NCBI GenBank assembly: GCA_947502635.1
Contig: CANNAN010000003.1
Coordinates: 496,001-560,000 of the forward strand
Source of the DNA: an uncultured Flavobacteriaceae bacterium
GTDB taxonomy: Bacteria > Bacteroidota > Bacteroidia > Flavobacteriales > Flavobacteriaceae
Length of the DNA stretch: 64,000 bases
Reading direction: 5' to 3'
In this document: in pieces, positions 33,813 through 45,733 of the stretch
Layout: every line of letters begins with the position of its first letter
How positions within the stretch are numbered: position 1 is the stretch's first letter
Notes under the pieces: generated by a model
The model's input: only the letters and a program-made list of their open reading frames with translations
The model's database searches: none
What the model was told of the DNA's origin: nothing
Program-made: the position numbers and the translations under genes

Positions 33813-34490
33813 ATGAAGAAATTAAACAAAATTATTGCCTTAGTAATATTAAGTAGTGTGTTATCAAACTGTGCGTCGACTAAACTTACAGAAACATGGT
33901 CTTCAAAAGATTTCGATGATACAAAATCGAAAAAGCTTTTAGTCGTTGCTAGGTCTAATGATTTAGAGGTTCGTAAAGTGTATGAAGACGAATTGGTTTC
34001 TAAATTAAAGACGCAAGGTGTAGATGCAGTGGCAGCCAATGTAATCTTTCCTAACCTTAAAGAAGATAAAGACCGCTCTCAAGAAGAAATTGAGACCATT
34101 TTATCTATGTTTAATAAGAATGGTATTAAGAGTATCATGCTTACTGCATTAAAAGATACCAAAGTAAAAAAGTCTTCAACAGAAAATACAGCAGATTATA
34201 GTTCGACTTCAATGAAGGGCAAATACGGAATAAGTTTTACAGATTATTATAATGTGCATTCTATTGAATATATTAGTAGAAATTTAAAGCCTGTAGATAC
34301 TAATACAAACGAAAGTGTTGTGAATTTATCCTCAACGACTTATATTTTAGAGGCCGTTATTTATGATTTAACATTAGATAGTGACAAGCAACTTGTTGGT
34401 GTTTATGAAATAGAAGCAACAGACCCATCATCGGCAAAACAAGTACTAAATAAATTTACTACAATTATTACAAAACAATTTAAACATTAA
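33813..34490 (+). CDS. lipoprotein, paralogue of 44330-44983
   Basis: This 225-aa lipoprotein has a lipobox (SVLSNC) with Cys near residue 20 followed by ASTKLTETWSSKDF. The ST-x5-TW start and the later KKLLVVARSNDLEVRKVYEDEL stretch recur in the 217-aa protein at 44330-44983, so the two are paralogues. The pattern loosely resembles DUF4136-type lipoproteins, but this is not certain. It lies four bases before a small exported protein in a three-gene run (33813-35354). No promoter like that of its paralogue is seen upstream. Confidence 0.75.
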   Translation: MKKLNKIIALVILSSVLSNCASTKLTETWSSKDFDDTKSKKLLVVARSNDLEVRKVYEDELVSKLKTQGVDAVAANVIFPNLKEDKDRSQEEIETILSMFNKNGIKSIMLTALKDTKVKKSSTENTADYSSTSMKGKYGISFTDYYNVHSIEYISRNLKPVDTNTNESVVNLSSTTYILEAVIYDLTLDSDKQLVGVYEIEATDPSSAKQVLNKFTTIITKQFKH

Positions 34491-40199: not shown

Positions 40200-40676
40200 T
40201 TATTCAAATATAACATCACTTGTTTTTAAATTTTCAATATCCTTTTGATTTCTAGTGTTAACAGGAACCTCAATAGTTAAGAAGGTATCTTTTCCATCAG
40301 AATCTTCACCTTGATAAAATTTAAAAACATAAGTTTCTTTCTGTAACGCTTTTACTGGTATTGAAAATGTTGTTTCAGTAATAACTTCATTACAACCAAT
40401 ACCATCATCTACATGTACTATGGGGTAAATAAGCCTTGTTGGTCCATCATAAATGTAATCAAACTGGTCATAGTAAAAATAGCAACTATTGGGTAGCGAT
40501 ATGGTTATATTAATTTGGTAAGTACTCCCGTAATTAAATTCATCAGGAAGTTCTGCGTTTATAACACCTGAATACTCTAAGTGGTAGTCGTGGTCGTTAT
40601 CGTTGTCGCTGCTGCATGATAATACAGATATAGAAAGAGCAACGATTGTAATTAATAAATACTTAAATCTTTTCAT
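40200..40676 (-). CDS. secreted lipoprotein, unknown function
   Basis: This 158-aa protein has a lipobox (ISVLSC) with Cys at residue 21 and an acidic SSDNDNDHD linker. The rest is beta-rich, with FYYDQFDYIYDG, YPIVHVDDGIGCNEV and FKFYQGEDSDGKDTFLTIEV, which hints at an Ig-like or jelly-roll fold. I recognise no family. It stands alone with its own terminator. Confidence 0.7.
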   Translation of the reverse strand: MKRFKYLLITIVALSISVLSCSSDNDNDHDYHLEYSGVINAELPDEFNYGSTYQINITISLPNSCYFYYDQFDYIYDGPTRLIYPIVHVDDGIGCNEVITETTFSIPVKALQKETYVFKFYQGEDSDGKDTFLTIEVPVNTRNQKDIENLKTSDVIFE

Positions 40677-40751
40677 CTTGTTTTATTTTTAATTCTATTC
40701 AAATGTACCCGCACTTTACATTTTTAATGGATTTATTTGAAGTGTTTAATG

Positions 40752-40859
40752 TTAATAATGATTTTTTTTTACTCTTATTTTAGTGTATCCAAAAACTCCT
40801 ATTTGAATTAATGCCGACACTAATACTATGATTTTCACGTATTCTAATAAAATAGTCAT
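40752..40859 (-). CDS. 35-aa single-helix membrane peptide
   Basis: The ORF runs ATG 40859 to TAA 40752. The product begins MTILLEYVKIIVLVSALIQIG, with one hydrophobic helix, and ends in a basic tail (KIRVKKNHY). It lies 12 bp after the 62-aa gene on the same strand, so it should share the transcript started at the 41092-41181 promoter. Small membrane peptides of this kind often modulate partner membrane proteins; here that is inference only. Confidence 0.55.
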   Translation of the reverse strand: MTILLEYVKIIVLVSALIQIGVFGYTKIRVKKNHY

Positions 40860-40871
40860 AACTTCTAGTGT

Positions 40872-41060
40872 TTAGTGTCTCATAGCTACTCCTGCAGCTG
40901 TTCCATATTCTTCTAGCGTTTTGACAAACCCTTTGATAGTGTTTTTGAAAGCTATTTTAACTTTTTCAAATGTTGTATATGTTGGTATTTCTCCTATTAT
41001 GGGTCTATAAAAATTCTTGTTGAATTGAGTGTTGTTAATTGTTGTGCTTTGAGTTCTCAT
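40872..41060 (-). CDS. 62-aa protein under the LytTR-type promoter
   Basis: This small protein has an N-terminal Thr/Asn-rich part (MRTQSTTINNTQFNKNFYRP) and a helical C-terminal part (FEKVKIAFKNTIKGFVKTLE). No signal peptide or membrane helix is clear. I recognise no family. Its ATG is 31 bp after the TACATTTG box of the promoter with the 21-bp repeats, and it is followed by the 35-aa membrane peptide. Confidence 0.65.
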   Translation of the reverse strand: MRTQSTTINNTQFNKNFYRPIIGEIPTYTTFEKVKIAFKNTIKGFVKTLEEYGTAAGVAMRH

Positions 41061-41091
41061 ATCTATTTGTGTTTAATGATTATTTATAGTA

Positions 41092-41181
41092 CAAATGTAG
41101 CCTGAAGCAACAGAGGAAATCGGAGCTATTTAAGTGAAGTGACCAAATAATTAGGTGAAGTGATTCTACTTGAAAGTGAAC
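41092..41181 (-). promoter_or_regulatory. regulated promoter 1 with 21-bp direct repeats
   Basis: On the reverse strand a TACATTTG -7 box is at 41092-41099. There is no TTTG at -33; GATT lies 18 bp upstream (41118-41121). Two copies of TCACTTCAC lie at 41134-41142 and 41155-41163, with starts 21 bp apart, and a third, partial copy is at 41172-41181. The promoter at 45160-45249 has the same elements at the same distances. Confidence 0.7.
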
Positions 41182-41269
41182 TTAAAATGTTAGTATGAGG
41201 TAAGTGATAAGAATTGAAGAAAAGGGCTTGTTTTGATGGGCTAACTATAATGATAAGAATTCAAAAATG

Positions 41270-42340
41270 CTACTCATATTGAAGCGTATCCTCAATACGT
41301 GTTACGGAATAGATATTTATTGTTCCTTGTTTACCTTCTAGAAGCACATCGCCTTCAAGTACAGATGTTGTCCATGAGTCAATTTCAACGACTTTTAACA
41401 GTTTTTCTGAAATAAGTAAATCAAAACCTAATCGATTGCATTGGTTTTGGATTCTTGAAGCTGTATTTATAGTATCACCATGATATGCAATTTCACGTTT
41501 GTATTCCCCAACTTCTGCAACAGTTATGGTACCACAATTCATACCTGCTTTAAATTCTGGTACTAAATCATAAGTTTTTAGATAGTAATCTGTTCTACTA
41601 TTAATTTGGTCTTTAAAAGCATAAAAAGCGCGAATACTTTTAGCGTTTTTAAGACCTTCCTTATAAGACCAAGTTAATACCGCTTCGTCTCCCACATATT
41701 GGTAAATAGAAGCTTTGTATTTATTAACTATGGCTAAATCATAAAAACAGTCTTGGAGGAGTTTACTATATTTTATATGGCCTAATTTTTCAGCAATTGT
41801 AGTAGAACTTCTAAGATCTAAAAACATGAAAATAAGCTCTTTTTCTTTTGGAGTATAGAATTTTCCTGAAATGAATTTAATCAAATTGCCTTCACCCAGC
41901 ATTAAATTGACATTGAGAAAAAGACTTATAAAGAAGTTAACTACTATAGTATAGATAAAGCTTACCCAAATGACAGGTAATTGAATAAACTCTGATATTT
42001 TAAAAGTAGTGTCTACAAATATTTCAATCTTAACAAATAAATAAAATATAAATACATAAAACCCAGTAGCAGATATAATTTGTAGTATAAGTGCAAATAC
42101 CAATAACTTAGATAATGGAATACGTTTTCTAACCAATTTTTCAAGGAAAATATAAAGTGTACCGTAAAGTAACCCTTGGGTTATCCATGCTATAATGAAT
42201 ATAAAAAGTATATTGGAGAGAGAGTCCTCCATATAAGTGATATTCACGTCTTGAGATCCTCGAAGCAGTTGCCAGACAAGGCTAGCAATTAACCAACCAA
42301 TAATATAATCCCGTAATATTTTATAATGTCTAGATTTCAA
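41270..42340 (-). CDS. membrane-bound class III adenylate/guanylate cyclase
   Basis: This 356-aa protein has four N-terminal membrane helices (about 10-145) and a C-terminal class III catalytic domain (about 165-350). FMFLDLRSSTTIAEKLG contains the first metal-binding Asp, YVGDEAVLTW the second, and HGDTINTASRIQNQC the nucleotide/transition-state Asn and Arg region. It would make cAMP or cGMP. The start is TTG at 42338-42340, since TGA lies six bases upstream. It follows the LytTR gene by 36 bp and probably ends the three-gene operon. Confidence 0.85.
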   Translation of the reverse strand: MKSRHYKILRDYIIGWLIASLVWQLLRGSQDVNITYMEDSLSNILFIFIIAWITQGLLYGTLYIFLEKLVRKRIPLSKLLVFALILQIISATGFYVFIFYLFVKIEIFVDTTFKISEFIQLPVIWVSFIYTIVVNFFISLFLNVNLMLGEGNLIKFISGKFYTPKEKELIFMFLDLRSSTTIAEKLGHIKYSKLLQDCFYDLAIVNKYKASIYQYVGDEAVLTWSYKEGLKNAKSIRAFYAFKDQINSRTDYYLKTYDLVPEFKAGMNCGTITVAEVGEYKREIAYHGDTINTASRIQNQCNRLGFDLLISEKLLKVVEIDSWTTSVLEGDVLLEGKQGTINIYSVTRIEDTLQYE

Positions 42341-42376
42341 ATTAAATCATTGATAGTTAAGCGTATTTTTATGAGT

Positions 42377-43138
42377 CTAATTATTTATCCATGTTTTTAT
42401 TTCTGATGATTTCGCTTTACTTATTGTAATACGCTCTTTAGATGGCGGATTTACATTGATAATTAGTTTTCCGTTAAAGTAGAATTTAATACTCTGTATC
42501 GCATTTCTATTCAGTATAAATTGTCTGTTTGCTCTGTGGAAATTATAGGGGTCTAGTTCTTTTTCTAAATCTTCCAATTTTTTCTCTATTACAAAAGCTT
42601 GATTTTTAAAAGTAATTGCTTTTACAATACTATTTTCTATATAAAAATAAGCAATATCTTCTGTTTTAACAGGAATTAATTCATCTCTTTGATGTACTAA
42701 AAATGTGGTTCTGAAAACCTGATTTTTAGATTGCATTAATTGTACTAATTGTTGGATGTTATCATAAGACATTGTGTCAATTTTAGCATTAGTTTTAAAC
42801 TTTTTAATAGAGCTACTTAATTCTTCTTCATTAATTGGCTTTAAAAGATAGTCAATGCTATTTACCTTAAATGCTTTTAAAGCATATTGATCATAAGCTG
42901 TTGTAAATATTATTGGAATGTTGATAGTTACTTTTTTAAAAATTTCAAATGAAATACCATCAGAAAGATGTATGTCCATAAAAATTAAAACAGCTTCACT
43001 TGGATTAGAGAAATAATCGATAGCCGATTTTACAGAATCCAGAACAGTGAGTATCTCTATGCTAGAGTCTATCTTATTTATTAAGTAAGTGAGTTGTTCA
43101 CTTGCTGCTAATTCATCTTCTACAATAACTACTTTCAT
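42377..43138 (-). CDS. LytTR-family response regulator
   Basis: This 253-aa regulator has a receiver domain (about 1-120) with VIVEDE at the start, the phospho-acceptor D55 (LIFMDIHLSDG) and YLLKPI near 105, then a LytTR DNA-binding domain (about 145-250; RDELIPVKTEDIAYFYIEN, NFHRANRQFILNRNAI). LytTR proteins bind pairs of direct repeats about 21-22 bp apart, which matches the repeats at 41134-41163 and 45202-45231. It lies four bases after the sensor gene. It is the best candidate for control of both promoters. Confidence 0.92.
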   Translation of the reverse strand: MKVVIVEDELAASEQLTYLINKIDSSIEILTVLDSVKSAIDYFSNPSEAVLIFMDIHLSDGISFEIFKKVTINIPIIFTTAYDQYALKAFKVNSIDYLLKPINEEELSSSIKKFKTNAKIDTMSYDNIQQLVQLMQSKNQVFRTTFLVHQRDELIPVKTEDIAYFYIENSIVKAITFKNQAFVIEKKLEDLEKELDPYNFHRANRQFILNRNAIQSIKFYFNGKLIINVNPPSKERITISKAKSSEIKTWINN

Positions 43139-43142
43139 GGTA

Positions 43143-44198
43143 TCAATTTAAAGAAAGTTTGACTTTAAAGGTATTATTTTTATTACTTATTGATATATGC
43201 TTCTTTTTTAGAGCATAATACCGCTTATTAAGGTTTGATAGTCCGTTTCCTGTTCCAGCAACGAAACCTTTTCTCGGTCTTATTTCATTTTCAATAATTA
43301 TAAACTCATCTTCAGAATATATATTAACTTGAAGTGGGTTCTCTTCTGATATTTCATTGTGTTTAATGGCATTTTCAACTAACAATTGAAGCGCTAAAAC
43401 GGGCACTTCTTTTTTTAGCCATTTTTCATGAATATTATAAGTGATGTTAAAACGATTACGATATCTTGTTTTTATTAAATGTATATAACTATCTAAAAAC
43501 TGAAGCTCTTCTTCTATAGATACCAAGTCTCGTTCACTACTTTGTAGTATATAACGGTACATGGAAGAGAGTTTGTTTATAAAGTTAGTAGCATCTTTGT
43601 TTTCTTTGACTAAAGCGCTTAATGAGTTTAGTGAATTGAATAAAAAGTGGGGGTTAACTTGATTTTTTAATGCCATCAATTCATTTTGTAAGCTTTGTTG
43701 TTTTAAAGCTTCTTGCTCTATCAATTTTTCTTTTAAGCTCATTTGATACCTTAAAATTCTAGCGATAAATATGATTATTATTGCTACGATAAAATATACG
43801 AAGTAGGTTAACCCTTGTTCTTCTGAGACCATTGATTCTCCTACTAATCTTGGGTACAAAAAGAAGAATAAATGTAATAAAGCTAAGTATAAAGCAATAT
43901 TAATTATGATGGTTGTTGCCCCCCTTAGAACACTTTGAAATTTTGAATAAAAATATTTGGTGTTTGCATTAAATTCTAATAATAACCATGAAAAGAACAT
44001 AAACCATAAAAACCGAAAAACGATATCTTTTAAGGAAGCAGAAGTGAAGGCTGTTGATAAGTCATCTACAATATCAAATATAATTAAGATCCTGGGAGAG
44101 GTTAAGAGTATTGATATTATAAATGCTATAGCTAGTAAAACTTTTTGCTTTATAAATTTGGTAGTCAAAATGGTTATAGTATTATTGATGAAGAACAT
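43143..44198 (-). CDS. LytS/YehU-like sensor histidine kinase
   Basis: This 351-aa protein has four to five membrane helices (about 15-150), a short coiled part, and a His_kinase domain with LKNQVNPHFLFNSLNSL, where H184 is the phosphorylation site. The ATPase domain has LLVENAIKHN near residue 267 (N box) and GTGNGLSNLNKRY near 318 (G box). There is no large periplasmic sensor domain, so the stimulus may be sensed in the membrane. It is the first gene of the operon with the LytTR regulator and the cyclase. Confidence 0.92.
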   Translation of the reverse strand: MFFINNTITILTTKFIKQKVLLAIAFIISILLTSPRILIIFDIVDDLSTAFTSASLKDIVFRFLWFMFFSWLLLEFNANTKYFYSKFQSVLRGATTIIINIALYLALLHLFFFLYPRLVGESMVSEEQGLTYFVYFIVAIIIIFIARILRYQMSLKEKLIEQEALKQQSLQNELMALKNQVNPHFLFNSLNSLSALVKENKDATNFINKLSSMYRYILQSSERDLVSIEEELQFLDSYIHLIKTRYRNRFNITYNIHEKWLKKEVPVLALQLLVENAIKHNEISEENPLQVNIYSEDEFIIIENEIRPRKGFVAGTGNGLSNLNKRYYALKKKHISISNKNNTFKVKLSLN

Positions 44199-44258
44199 AA
44201 CTAATATAGTTAAAATTAATATAAGTTAATTGTATAGTTTAAGAATGAGGTTAAAAAA

Positions 44259-44300
44259 CTGCCAGAGAATTTTGAAATGTGTTTCAATGACCTCTGGCAG
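44259..44300 (-). terminator. long hairpin terminator after lipoprotein 44330
   Basis: CTGCCAGAG at 44259-44267 pairs with 44292-44300, with an inner TTGAAA/TTTCAA pairing. On the reverse strand TTTTTT follows the stem. It separates the lipoprotein transcript from the sensor-kinase operon. Confidence 0.85.
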
Positions 44301-44329
44301 TCAAACTAACCAAACCAACTAAATGAAAA

Positions 44330-44983
44330 TTAATTAACTAATTGTTTCACTATCTTTTTTGAAAAATCTGACGATATAACATCTAACGATTTTGGGCTAT
44401 CAATCTCTGTTGTTATTACTAATATTAATTGATCGTTATCAGTTTTTGTTAAATCGTAGATTACTGTTTCAAGAATATATTTTTTTCCTGTATACGTTAT
44501 GGTGCTTTCGGGCTCAGAATTTACATGAATACTACTGTAGTAACGATAAAATGTCCCGCTGGGTCCTCTAAAGTATGTGGGAAAATAAAGTGCTGAGTAG
44601 CCGCCACCAGTTGTTTCTGTTCTTGAATATTCTTGAGTCTCTTTTAAAGTGTTAAGTATAATGATATCTACGCCTTTATTTTTCAAATCCTCTACGATTT
44701 TTTGCACTTCATTTTCATTAAGTCTTACCTCTGTATCAATTTTTGGAAAAATGCTTAAGCTTTCCATAGAATTGAGGTCGTATTCTCTTAACTTGTTTAC
44801 AAGGTCATTCTCAAACTGACTTCTAACAACGTTGTCGTCCGTTTTACTTATTACCATGATACGTTTATCATTTAAATTGAGTTCTTCTGAATTGTTCCAG
44901 GTATTAACAACCCTTACTGTTGAGCAACTTGTAACCATTACAATTAGTGTTAATATGCCTAATATTTTGCTTATTATTTTCAT
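44330..44983 (-). CDS. lipoprotein, paralogue of 33813-34490
   Basis: This 217-aa lipoprotein has a lipobox (VMVTSC) with Cys near residue 20 followed by STVRVVNTW. KRIMVISKTDDNVVRSQFENDL and VDIIILNTLKETQEYS resemble the paralogue at 33813-34490. A Gly/Ser/Tyr-rich middle (GGGYSALYFPTYFRGPSG) is specific to this copy. It lies 14 bp after a 45-aa ORF and is expected on the transcript from 45160-45249, so it is a likely target of the LytTR regulator next door. Confidence 0.75.
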   Translation of the reverse strand: MKIISKILGILTLIVMVTSCSTVRVVNTWNNSEELNLNDKRIMVISKTDDNVVRSQFENDLVNKLREYDLNSMESLSIFPKIDTEVRLNENEVQKIVEDLKNKGVDIIILNTLKETQEYSRTETTGGGYSALYFPTYFRGPSGTFYRYYSSIHVNSEPESTITYTGKKYILETVIYDLTKTDNDQLILVITTEIDSPKSLDVISSDFSKKIVKQLVN

Positions 44984-44997
44984 GATTTCTAGTGTAT

Positions 44998-45135
44998 TTA
45001 TATAAACATATGGATGTCATTAGTATCTCTGTTGATTAAATTTAATCTTGTTGAGGTATCATTTTTAGAGTGTTTTATGTCTGAAAAACGTTTTAAAAAG
45101 CTCCATTTTTTGAGAATTGATTTTAAATTTTTCAT
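44998..45135 (-). CDS. 45-aa peptide under the second LytTR-type promoter
   Basis: The ORF runs ATG 45135 to TAA 44998. The product begins MKNLKSILKKWSFLKRFSDI, basic and amphipathic, with a polar Asn/Thr/Asp-rich tail and no clear membrane helix. It starts 24 bp after the TACATTTG box and precedes the lipoprotein by 14 bp. I recognise no family. Its position matches that of the 62-aa gene behind the sister promoter. Confidence 0.5.
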   Translation of the reverse strand: MKNLKSILKKWSFLKRFSDIKHSKNDTSTRLNLINRDTNDIHMFI

Positions 45136-45159
45136 GACGTTAATGTTTTTATTCTTGTA

Positions 45160-45249
45160 CAAATGTATGCCACGATTAAAGTCTGAATCTTAACTTTTTA
45201 AGTGAAGTGACTAAAATCTAAAGTGAAGTGTTCTGTGTTGAAAGTGAAC
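45160..45249 (-). promoter_or_regulatory. regulated promoter 2 with 21-bp direct repeats
   Basis: On the reverse strand a TACATTTG box is at 45160-45167, with GATT 18 bp upstream (45186-45189) in place of TTTG. TCACTTCAC-type copies lie at 45202-45210 and 45223-45231, with starts 21 bp apart, and a third partial copy is at 45240-45249. Every distance is the same as in 41092-41181. Confidence 0.7.
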
Positions 45250-45733
45250 TATGTTCAAAGTATAAATAGCCCATTTATAATTTTAAAAGAAAGGTAGAAA
45301 CCTGAAGAATAGGTATGAGTTAGTAAAGAGAAAAAGCTCTCTTTTGGTAATATGTTAACACAGACACAATAATAACTACAACAATTAAATCATAAATAAA
45401 TGTCGGTATTGGAAGAGAGGCATCAGTGCGTGACTATGTAGTCCATACAAATAAATAGTTTACACCAAACAAGTTATTACAATAACCACAAACCAATTAC
45501 TACAGCAATAAAAAACTACAGTTGCCCTCTATCTTGCGGACTTTTTATTCAGATTAACTAGAATTTTTGCCTAAACACAACTTTTGAGCATGATCCCTAA
45601 AAAATTCAATTTGAAGTTAATTTGAAAATTAATTTAAAGAGGTTAAGATAGATTAACAAAGTAAAAAAAGGGGTGAAATAAAATAACAAACCATATATTG
45701 TGTTGATATACAGTTTGTTGTGAAAATTAGTTG
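45250..45733. other. 484-bp gap upstream of regulated promoter 2
   Basis: I see no gene, repeat or clear promoter here. The longest ATG frame is about 13 codons. It lies between the tRNA-Leu gene and the promoter of the 45-aa gene. Confidence 0.4.

Follow-up and report, generated by a model that had tools for sequence, protein, structure and literature searches.

The 64,000-nucleotide stretch considered here (hereafter the window; GenBank assembly GCA_947502635.1, contig CANNAN010000003.1, positions 496,001–560,000 of the forward strand) comes from an uncultured bacterium of the family Flavobacteriaceae. It contains an operon for a sensor histidine kinase, a LytTR response regulator, and a cyclase, which lies between two promoters of common architecture, designated P1 and P2. 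Judging from sequence comparisons, the kinase and the regulator very probably form a dedicated two-component system that activates both promoters flanking their genes via tandem half-sites. In the proposed mechanism, the phosphorylated regulator (42377–43138) would bind two to three tandem half-sites per promoter with the consensus gGTC[AG][CT]TTCACtT, six half-sites in the window. The half-sites would lie on one face of the DNA, 21 base pairs (bp), or two helical turns, apart, and at a fixed distance of 43 bp (sometimes 42 bp, or 63–64 bp, i.e., one period further) from a −7 box TAnnTTTG that lacks a good −33 element. The bound regulator would recruit RNA polymerase to this box. The products would be small and probably envelope-related: P2 would drive the 45-amino acid (aa) protein p45 and the PelC/CsgG-like lipoprotein lipo217, and P1 the protein p62 and a membrane peptide.

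Architecture of promoters P1 and P2

Both promoters were read from the sequence of the minus strand. P1 (41092–41184) comprises the −7 box TACATTTG (41092–41099), a GATT (41118–41121) 18 bp upstream of it, the proximal half-site TCACTTCAC (41134–41142), found by motif and spaced-pair scans, the second half-site TCACTTCAC (41155–41163), 21 bp from the first, and, after another 21 bp, the distal half-site TAAGTTCAC (41176–41184) with the core TTCAC, placed by register statistics. P2 (45160–45252) comprises the −7 box TACATTTG (45160–45167), GATT (45186–45189), half-sites TCACTTCAC (45202–45210) and ACACTTCAC (45223–45231), both found by motif and spaced-pair scans, and the distal half-site ATAGTTCAC (45244–45252), which has the core TTCAC in exact 21-bp register (sequence and register statistics).

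A first-pass annotation of this DNA had described the two promoters as identical in architecture, and the −7 box, the GATT 18 bp upstream, and the repeats at 21 bp were found again on re-reading of both. Its repeat-to-box distance of 42 bp holds from left edge to left edge in plus-strand coordinates; counted between start positions along the transcribed strand, it is 43 bp at both promoters. The third copy, placed there 17 bp further, is in exact 21-bp register at both P1 and P2. The proximal repeat is separated by 12 bp from the −33 position and by 34 bp from the −7 box. GATT was considered as a −33 element: it is present at both promoters of the window and conserved at P1 in several relatives, but P2 of loci L047 and L050 lacks it, and it was therefore not counted as an element.

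Counts of single motifs were rejected as evidence, being near chance in the window: TACATTTG was found 9 times with 5.16 expected (4 of 100 shuffles reached 9), and TCACTTCAC with one mismatch 10 times with 9.8 expected. The spaced pair alone stands out. In the whole 5.44-Mb genome, a 34-bp pair pattern with up to three mismatches matched only P2 and P1, the latter also in the register shifted to its third copy; its backwards control gave two matches, but this control overlaps the motif itself. Patterns of 71–72 bp including the −7 box matched P1 and P2 only (control, 0).

P1 and P2 are alike in layout, and this likeness could have come from recent copying of one promoter, in which case the repeats would be functionless. 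We give this explanation almost no weight. The two promoters have unlike spacer sequences but share half-sites, spacing, and −7 box; the same elements occur in other genera, and the spacing peak at 21 bp and the register of the third copy, both described below, also speak against it.

Conservation of the repeats at orthologous loci

Orthologues of the regulator were defined by E ≤ 1e-70 and were present in 36 of 397 genomes of the family; together with four genomes of the same genus they make up 40 orthologue genomes. The stretches read covered all 40, the locus of a 52% identical LytTR protein in genome G009, and 17 named relatives, including Aquimarina, Kordia, Arenibacter, Maribacter, Poritiphilus, and Winogradskyella (two of these 17 genomes are also in the 39-locus set of family genomes used below).

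Absence of the repeats from orthologous loci, named in the first-pass annotation as a refutation, was looked for and did not hold: the repeats, the 21-bp period, and the 43-bp offset recur beside the LytTR orthologue, both within the genus and outside it, though not at every locus. Among same-genus genomes, G001, G002 (P1 with three mismatches), and G010 have P1 as well as P2, each with its half-sites at the 43-bp offset; the contig of G005 ends before P2, and G008 has P2 only. In other genera, the same elements persist next to LytTR proteins 52–72% identical to that of the window.

Pairs of TCRYTTCAC (up to two mismatches in all) at a spacing of 21 bp numbered 42 in 24 of the 39 orthologue loci of family genomes and 18 in 10 of the 17 named-relative loci. 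In both sets, spacings of 17–20 and 22–25 bp gave 0 or 1 pairs (0 at 20 and 22), and six shuffled half-sites gave 0–3 pairs at spacing 21. Lesser bumps in the 39-locus set (spacing 42, 16 pairs; spacing 16, 12 pairs; spacing 26, 6 pairs) are interpreted as pairings of the first copy with the third and as overlap within the half-site. The shuffled half-sites replaced a reversed-motif control from a scan of 42 loci (at spacing 21 it gave 34 pairs vs. 33), which was discarded as invalid because TCACTTCACT backwards nearly equals itself; the same weakness affects further backwards controls, including that of the 34-bp scan of the own genome.

The distance to the −7 box was counted without selection in the 42-locus scan over a range of 20–89 bp. 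Of the 34 pairs with 21-bp spacing, 20 have a TAnnTTTG that begins 43 bp past the first base of the downstream half-site, and 9 have one at 64 bp; other distances were 63 (two pairs), 42 (one), and 38 (one). The value 64 equals 43 plus one period, and some of these cases come from triple sites, as the distal pair beside a proximal one already counted at 43. A further set of 46 distinct sites (33 loci) was selected by script for offsets 42, 43, 63, and 64. In this set, the TTCA core of a third copy was found at offset 21 in 27 sites, and the best other offset between 9 and 39 reached 10. The 30 sites with offset 43 gave the consensus t..a.TTCACTtT.aa.ta.aG.CAcTTCACTtt..atTTTgGTCgcTTCACtTAAAAA......Att..a.c.....t..c....TAcATTTG. 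No TTG-type −33 was seen in these 30 aligned sites; ATT stands at the −33 position in 60–70% of them, a sample heavy with close relatives. TAnnTTTG is the sigma-A −7 consensus of Flavobacterium psychrophilum (PMC9723704).

The same geometry bears on the direction of control. A LytTR protein could bind these sites and repress, with the kinase relieving repression, which we consider quite improbable. The half-sites are placed upstream of −33 and keep a constant distance to a −7 box that has no TTG-type −33; in Streptococcus mutans, activation requires the repeats located there (PMC6193735).

Association of the sites with the regulator

The link to LytTR genes expected from the first-pass annotation was borne out by pattern searches in other genomes: the sites favor genomes with an orthologue of the regulator and lie mostly within 7.5 kb of its gene. 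A longer pattern with up to three mismatches matched 13 of 36 orthologue genomes vs. 8 of 361 others (Fisher p 4e-10). Simple CACTT repeats account for two of these eight (G024 and G118), and the backwards control matched 8 of 397 genomes. With the degenerate half-site, 27 of 40 orthologue genomes vs. 7 of 40 others had a site (p 6e-6); backwards, the counts were 3 of 40 and 4 of 40. Within 7.5 kb of the LytTR gene lie 33 of the 52 sites of orthologue genomes, in 23 of the 40 genomes. Among the seven non-orthologue genomes with a site, G009 has it ~1.5 kb from the gene of its 52% identical LytTR protein, and G070 has it at one mismatch. Relatives of the putative target genes are distributed in the same direction, with lipo217 relatives (E ≤ 1e-15) in 30 of 40 orthologue genomes vs. 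9 of 40 others and p62 relatives in 9 of 40 vs. 0 of 40. In G153, a p62 outside the search profile is encoded ~12 kb away from the LytTR gene; 86 bp upstream of this p62 is a site (four mismatches, offset 43).

The sites could also be true operators that serve another LytTR regulator, a paralogue in the same genome, and the neighboring regulator would then not be the cognate one; this is, in our opinion, unlikely. Two sites of good quality (5699 and 6366, offset 43) in G349 (L144) lie ~4 kb from the gene of a LytTR protein only 35% identical to that of the window; this half-site may thus also serve other LytTR subgroups. G003 and G004 match the pattern but have no orthologue. However, the sites track this orthologue over the genomes and cluster within 7.5 kb of its gene, and five same-genus genomes in which the best match is of paralogue grade (G003, G004, G006, G007, and G011) have neither lipo217 (E ≤ 1e-15) nor p62.

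Several points weigh against activation of both promoters by the neighboring system. At E ≤ 0.001, the regulator protein has 17 matches in the own genome (the LytTR domain was not confirmed for each), so that candidates for such a paralogue exist. At 63 loci of less related LytTR genes, 12 pairs at 21 bp occurred in nine loci vs. 0–5 with shuffled half-sites; the half-site is thus not wholly private to the orthologue group of the window regulator, and other regulators may share it, as the paralogue alternative would have it. A site was present in 35 of 58 loci, which leaves 23 with none in the stretch read, and 13 of 40 orthologue genomes had none at the threshold used. The 40 comparison genomes were picked by the authors, and the Fisher p-values overstate independence because the genomes are related. 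Finally, direct autoregulation of the kinase operon is not supported in the window. Pattern scans with up to three mismatches gave no site before the kinase gene, and read-through from P2, which could have provided such autoregulation, is weakened by a terminator-like hairpin, CTGCCAGAG...CTCTGGCAG-T6, between lipo217 and the kinase gene (44253–44300, minus strand). This hairpin with its T-tract has a folding energy of −30 kcal/mol (z −4.9) and was recognized by eye in all seven loci compared (the window and six close relatives); a simple terminator scan did not list it.

Some other genera do have a site before the kinase gene (L051 and L161). At L112, L113, L119, L120, L122, L124, L126, L128, L129, and L135, likewise in other genera, a site located upstream of the kinase gene precedes an exported protein of ~125–200 aa, which, where the sequence extends far enough, has an acidic stretch like 'ELEEEVKLGFDT'. 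Sites of shared sequence were also noticed away from the operon, at G002:C1:2885197, G360:C4:71382, and G003:C1:214908 (G003 being without an orthologue).

Genes of the locus

All genes of the locus described here are on the minus strand. Pfam searches agreed with the first-pass assignment of the three genes between the promoters. The sensor kinase (43143–44198) matched His_kinase (PF06580, 87.9 bits) as the only Pfam family, and simple hydropathy indicated three N-terminal hydrophobic segments. Its relatives sit directly upstream of the regulator gene in the orthologous loci looked at. The regulator (42377–43138) matched LytTR (70.3 bits, cut-off 22.6) and Response_reg (42.5 bits, cut-off 30.2), and its residue D55 is invariant across 21 aligned rows. 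The last gene of the kinase operon (41270–42340) encodes a class III adenylate/guanylate cyclase (Pfam Guanylate_cyc) with hydrophobic segments.

P1 is followed by p62 (40872–41060), a 62-aa member of a cross-genus small-protein family with the C-terminus YGTAAGVAMRH, and by p35 (40752–40859), a 35-aa peptide with one hydrophobic segment. P2 is followed by p45 (44998–45135), a 45-aa protein ending in NDIHMFI, and by lipo217 (44330–44983). None of p62, p35, and p45 matched any Pfam or NCBIfam model, and lipo217 gave sub-threshold family matches only. In five close genomes, the coding test was uninformative for p62 (18 of 95 differing codon pairs synonymous, 0.19 vs. 0.21 expected), gave 7 of 31 for p35 (0.23 vs. 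0.23 expected), and pointed to mildly purifying selection for p45 (99 of 312, 0.32 vs. 0.18 expected).

The AlphaFold model of lipo217 (built from 8 sequences; mean pLDDT, the predicted local distance difference test, 75, i.e., of moderate confidence) resembles in fold the outer-membrane lipoproteins PelC and CsgG. Its best match in the PDB was PelC (E 4e-7; template modeling score 0.46 by query and 0.62 by target), with CsgG lower. Identity is ~11%, the root-mean-square deviation is large (12.8), and no pel or curli family was detected among the ten window proteins scanned against Pfam; the function of PelC/CsgG is therefore not transferable to lipo217.

A second relative of lipo217, 29% identical, is encoded on the plus strand of the window at 33813–34481, and similar copies are present in G001, G005, G010, and G069. 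A further TACATTTG (40700–40707, minus strand) lies ~24 bp before the start of another lipoprotein gene (40200–40676), so this gene may be transcribed from a promoter of its own instead of relying on P1.

Gene order

In the window, the small genes flank the kinase operon on both sides, and each side has its own putative operator. In Aquimarina locus L150, the order is site, p62-like gene, open reading frame (ORF) with an LFI end, lipo217, and kinase gene. The small genes have the same order in Aquimarina loci L151 and L153, with no site at threshold. Since L150 has a single site before all the small genes, the promoter pair of the window looks like the split form of one ancestral operon; the split would then have occurred in the direction of the window arrangement.

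Small proteins with fixed C-termini

Two families of tiny proteins, with the fixed C-termini -[ML]FI and -AAGxA[MI]R-like, are new here as predicted from the sequences. The first (FI family) consists of ORFs of ~40–76 aa with a variable body, mostly an acidic stretch, and then [ML]FI, often located just upstream of lipo217. Its members were found in the window (p45, 44998–45135) and in L052, L053, L112, L113, L115, L117, L118, L120–L122, L133, L142, and L150–L154. Of 35 lipo217-like ORFs in the stretches read (one genome counted twice), 18 are preceded, at no more than 450 bp, by a 40–76 aa ORF with an FI end; in 16 of these the distance is 13–29 bp. Among all 2252 ORFs of 30–95 aa in the loci read, an FI end occurs in 43 and [ML]FI in 26, and these 26 look, by eye, like members of the family. 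A further set of 30 lipo217 loci overlaps with the first; of its 29 parsed loci, 14 have an FI-type ORF, all 14 in genomes with a LytTR orthologue, vs. 0 of 4 in genomes without one. The tail codons vary synonymously; therefore, the constraint acts on the protein. The second family comprises p62 of the window (40872–41060) and its relatives in L047, L111, L121, L149–L153, and L266, and ends in LExxG[AST]AAGxA[MI]R in most of the 10 rows aligned, exceptions being L149 and L151.

Tentatively, the fixed C-termini could be the working part of these regulon proteins of ~40–76 aa, in which the remainder of the chain is free to vary, and the circuit could be an envelope-sensing one run by microproteins; we put this joint reading forward as a possibility rather than an expectation. 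The tails may then act as a docking tail, a degron, a peptide that feeds back on the kinase as a signal, or a sequence that arrests the ribosome just ahead of the lipoprotein gene.

Comparison with known LytTR systems

The LytTR regulators AgrA, ComE, and VirR act on two direct repeats upstream of their target promoters. The sequence of their half-sites differs from that of the window, and Agr and Com answer peptide pheromones.

A close likeness to the putative operator is in Escherichia coli, where the LytTR protein YpdB binds the direct repeat GGCATTTCAT-N11-GGCATTTCAT before yhjX, with a 21-bp period in the published oligonucleotide (PMC4847170). The period is common to both, and the core is nearly identical to CA[CT]TTCA here. 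The YpdB operator has two half-sites, and two to three are present here. YpdA/YpdB, a LytS/LytTR pair described as pyruvate-responsive, also differs from the window in its setting, which here includes small proteins, a lipoprotein, and a bacteroidotal −7 box. The pyruvate sensors YpdAB and BtsSR are marked by a LytS-type multi-pass receptor domain; in the kinase of the window, Pfam gives His_kinase alone and simple hydropathy three N-terminal segments.

According to PMC6193735, LytTR systems use direct repeats of 9–11 bp, separated by 11–12 bp (mostly 12), with a strong bias to a position 10 bp before the −35 element. In the LytTR regulatory systems (LRS) described there, such as those of S. 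mutans, an inhibitory membrane protein is the partner of the LytTR regulator, and the systems drive their own operon; in LRS-like operons of Bacteroides the repeats are located 11 bp before TGTA-19 bp-TATCTTTG. In the Bacteroides thetaiotaomicron row of the published table, the distance from the repeat end to TATCTTTG sums to 34 bp, the same as from the repeat end to the −7 box in the window. The window system is not an LRS: it has a histidine kinase instead of the inhibitory membrane protein, a receiver-domain regulator, and no repeats before its own operon. With receiver and LytTR domains in the regulator and an adjacent PF06580 kinase, it belongs to the LytTR two-component systems. Its sites, ~9-bp direct repeats with a period of ~21–22 bp directly upstream of the −35/−33 position, have the form of LytTR operators, and binding is predicted from this form. 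Given the core and spacing of the YpdB operator, the position of the LRS repeats, and the 34-bp sum in Bacteroides, the sites are read as LytTR operators for activation.

No operator for a LytTR two-component system of Flavobacteriaceae was found in literature searches, which covered open-licence papers. At the level of sequence, a conserved LytTR operator system with an unusual microprotein content is well supported. A conserved operator with fixed promoter geometry would provide this family with a testable binding site and a route to list the regulon in other genomes, and it also brings to light microproteins with fixed C-termini.

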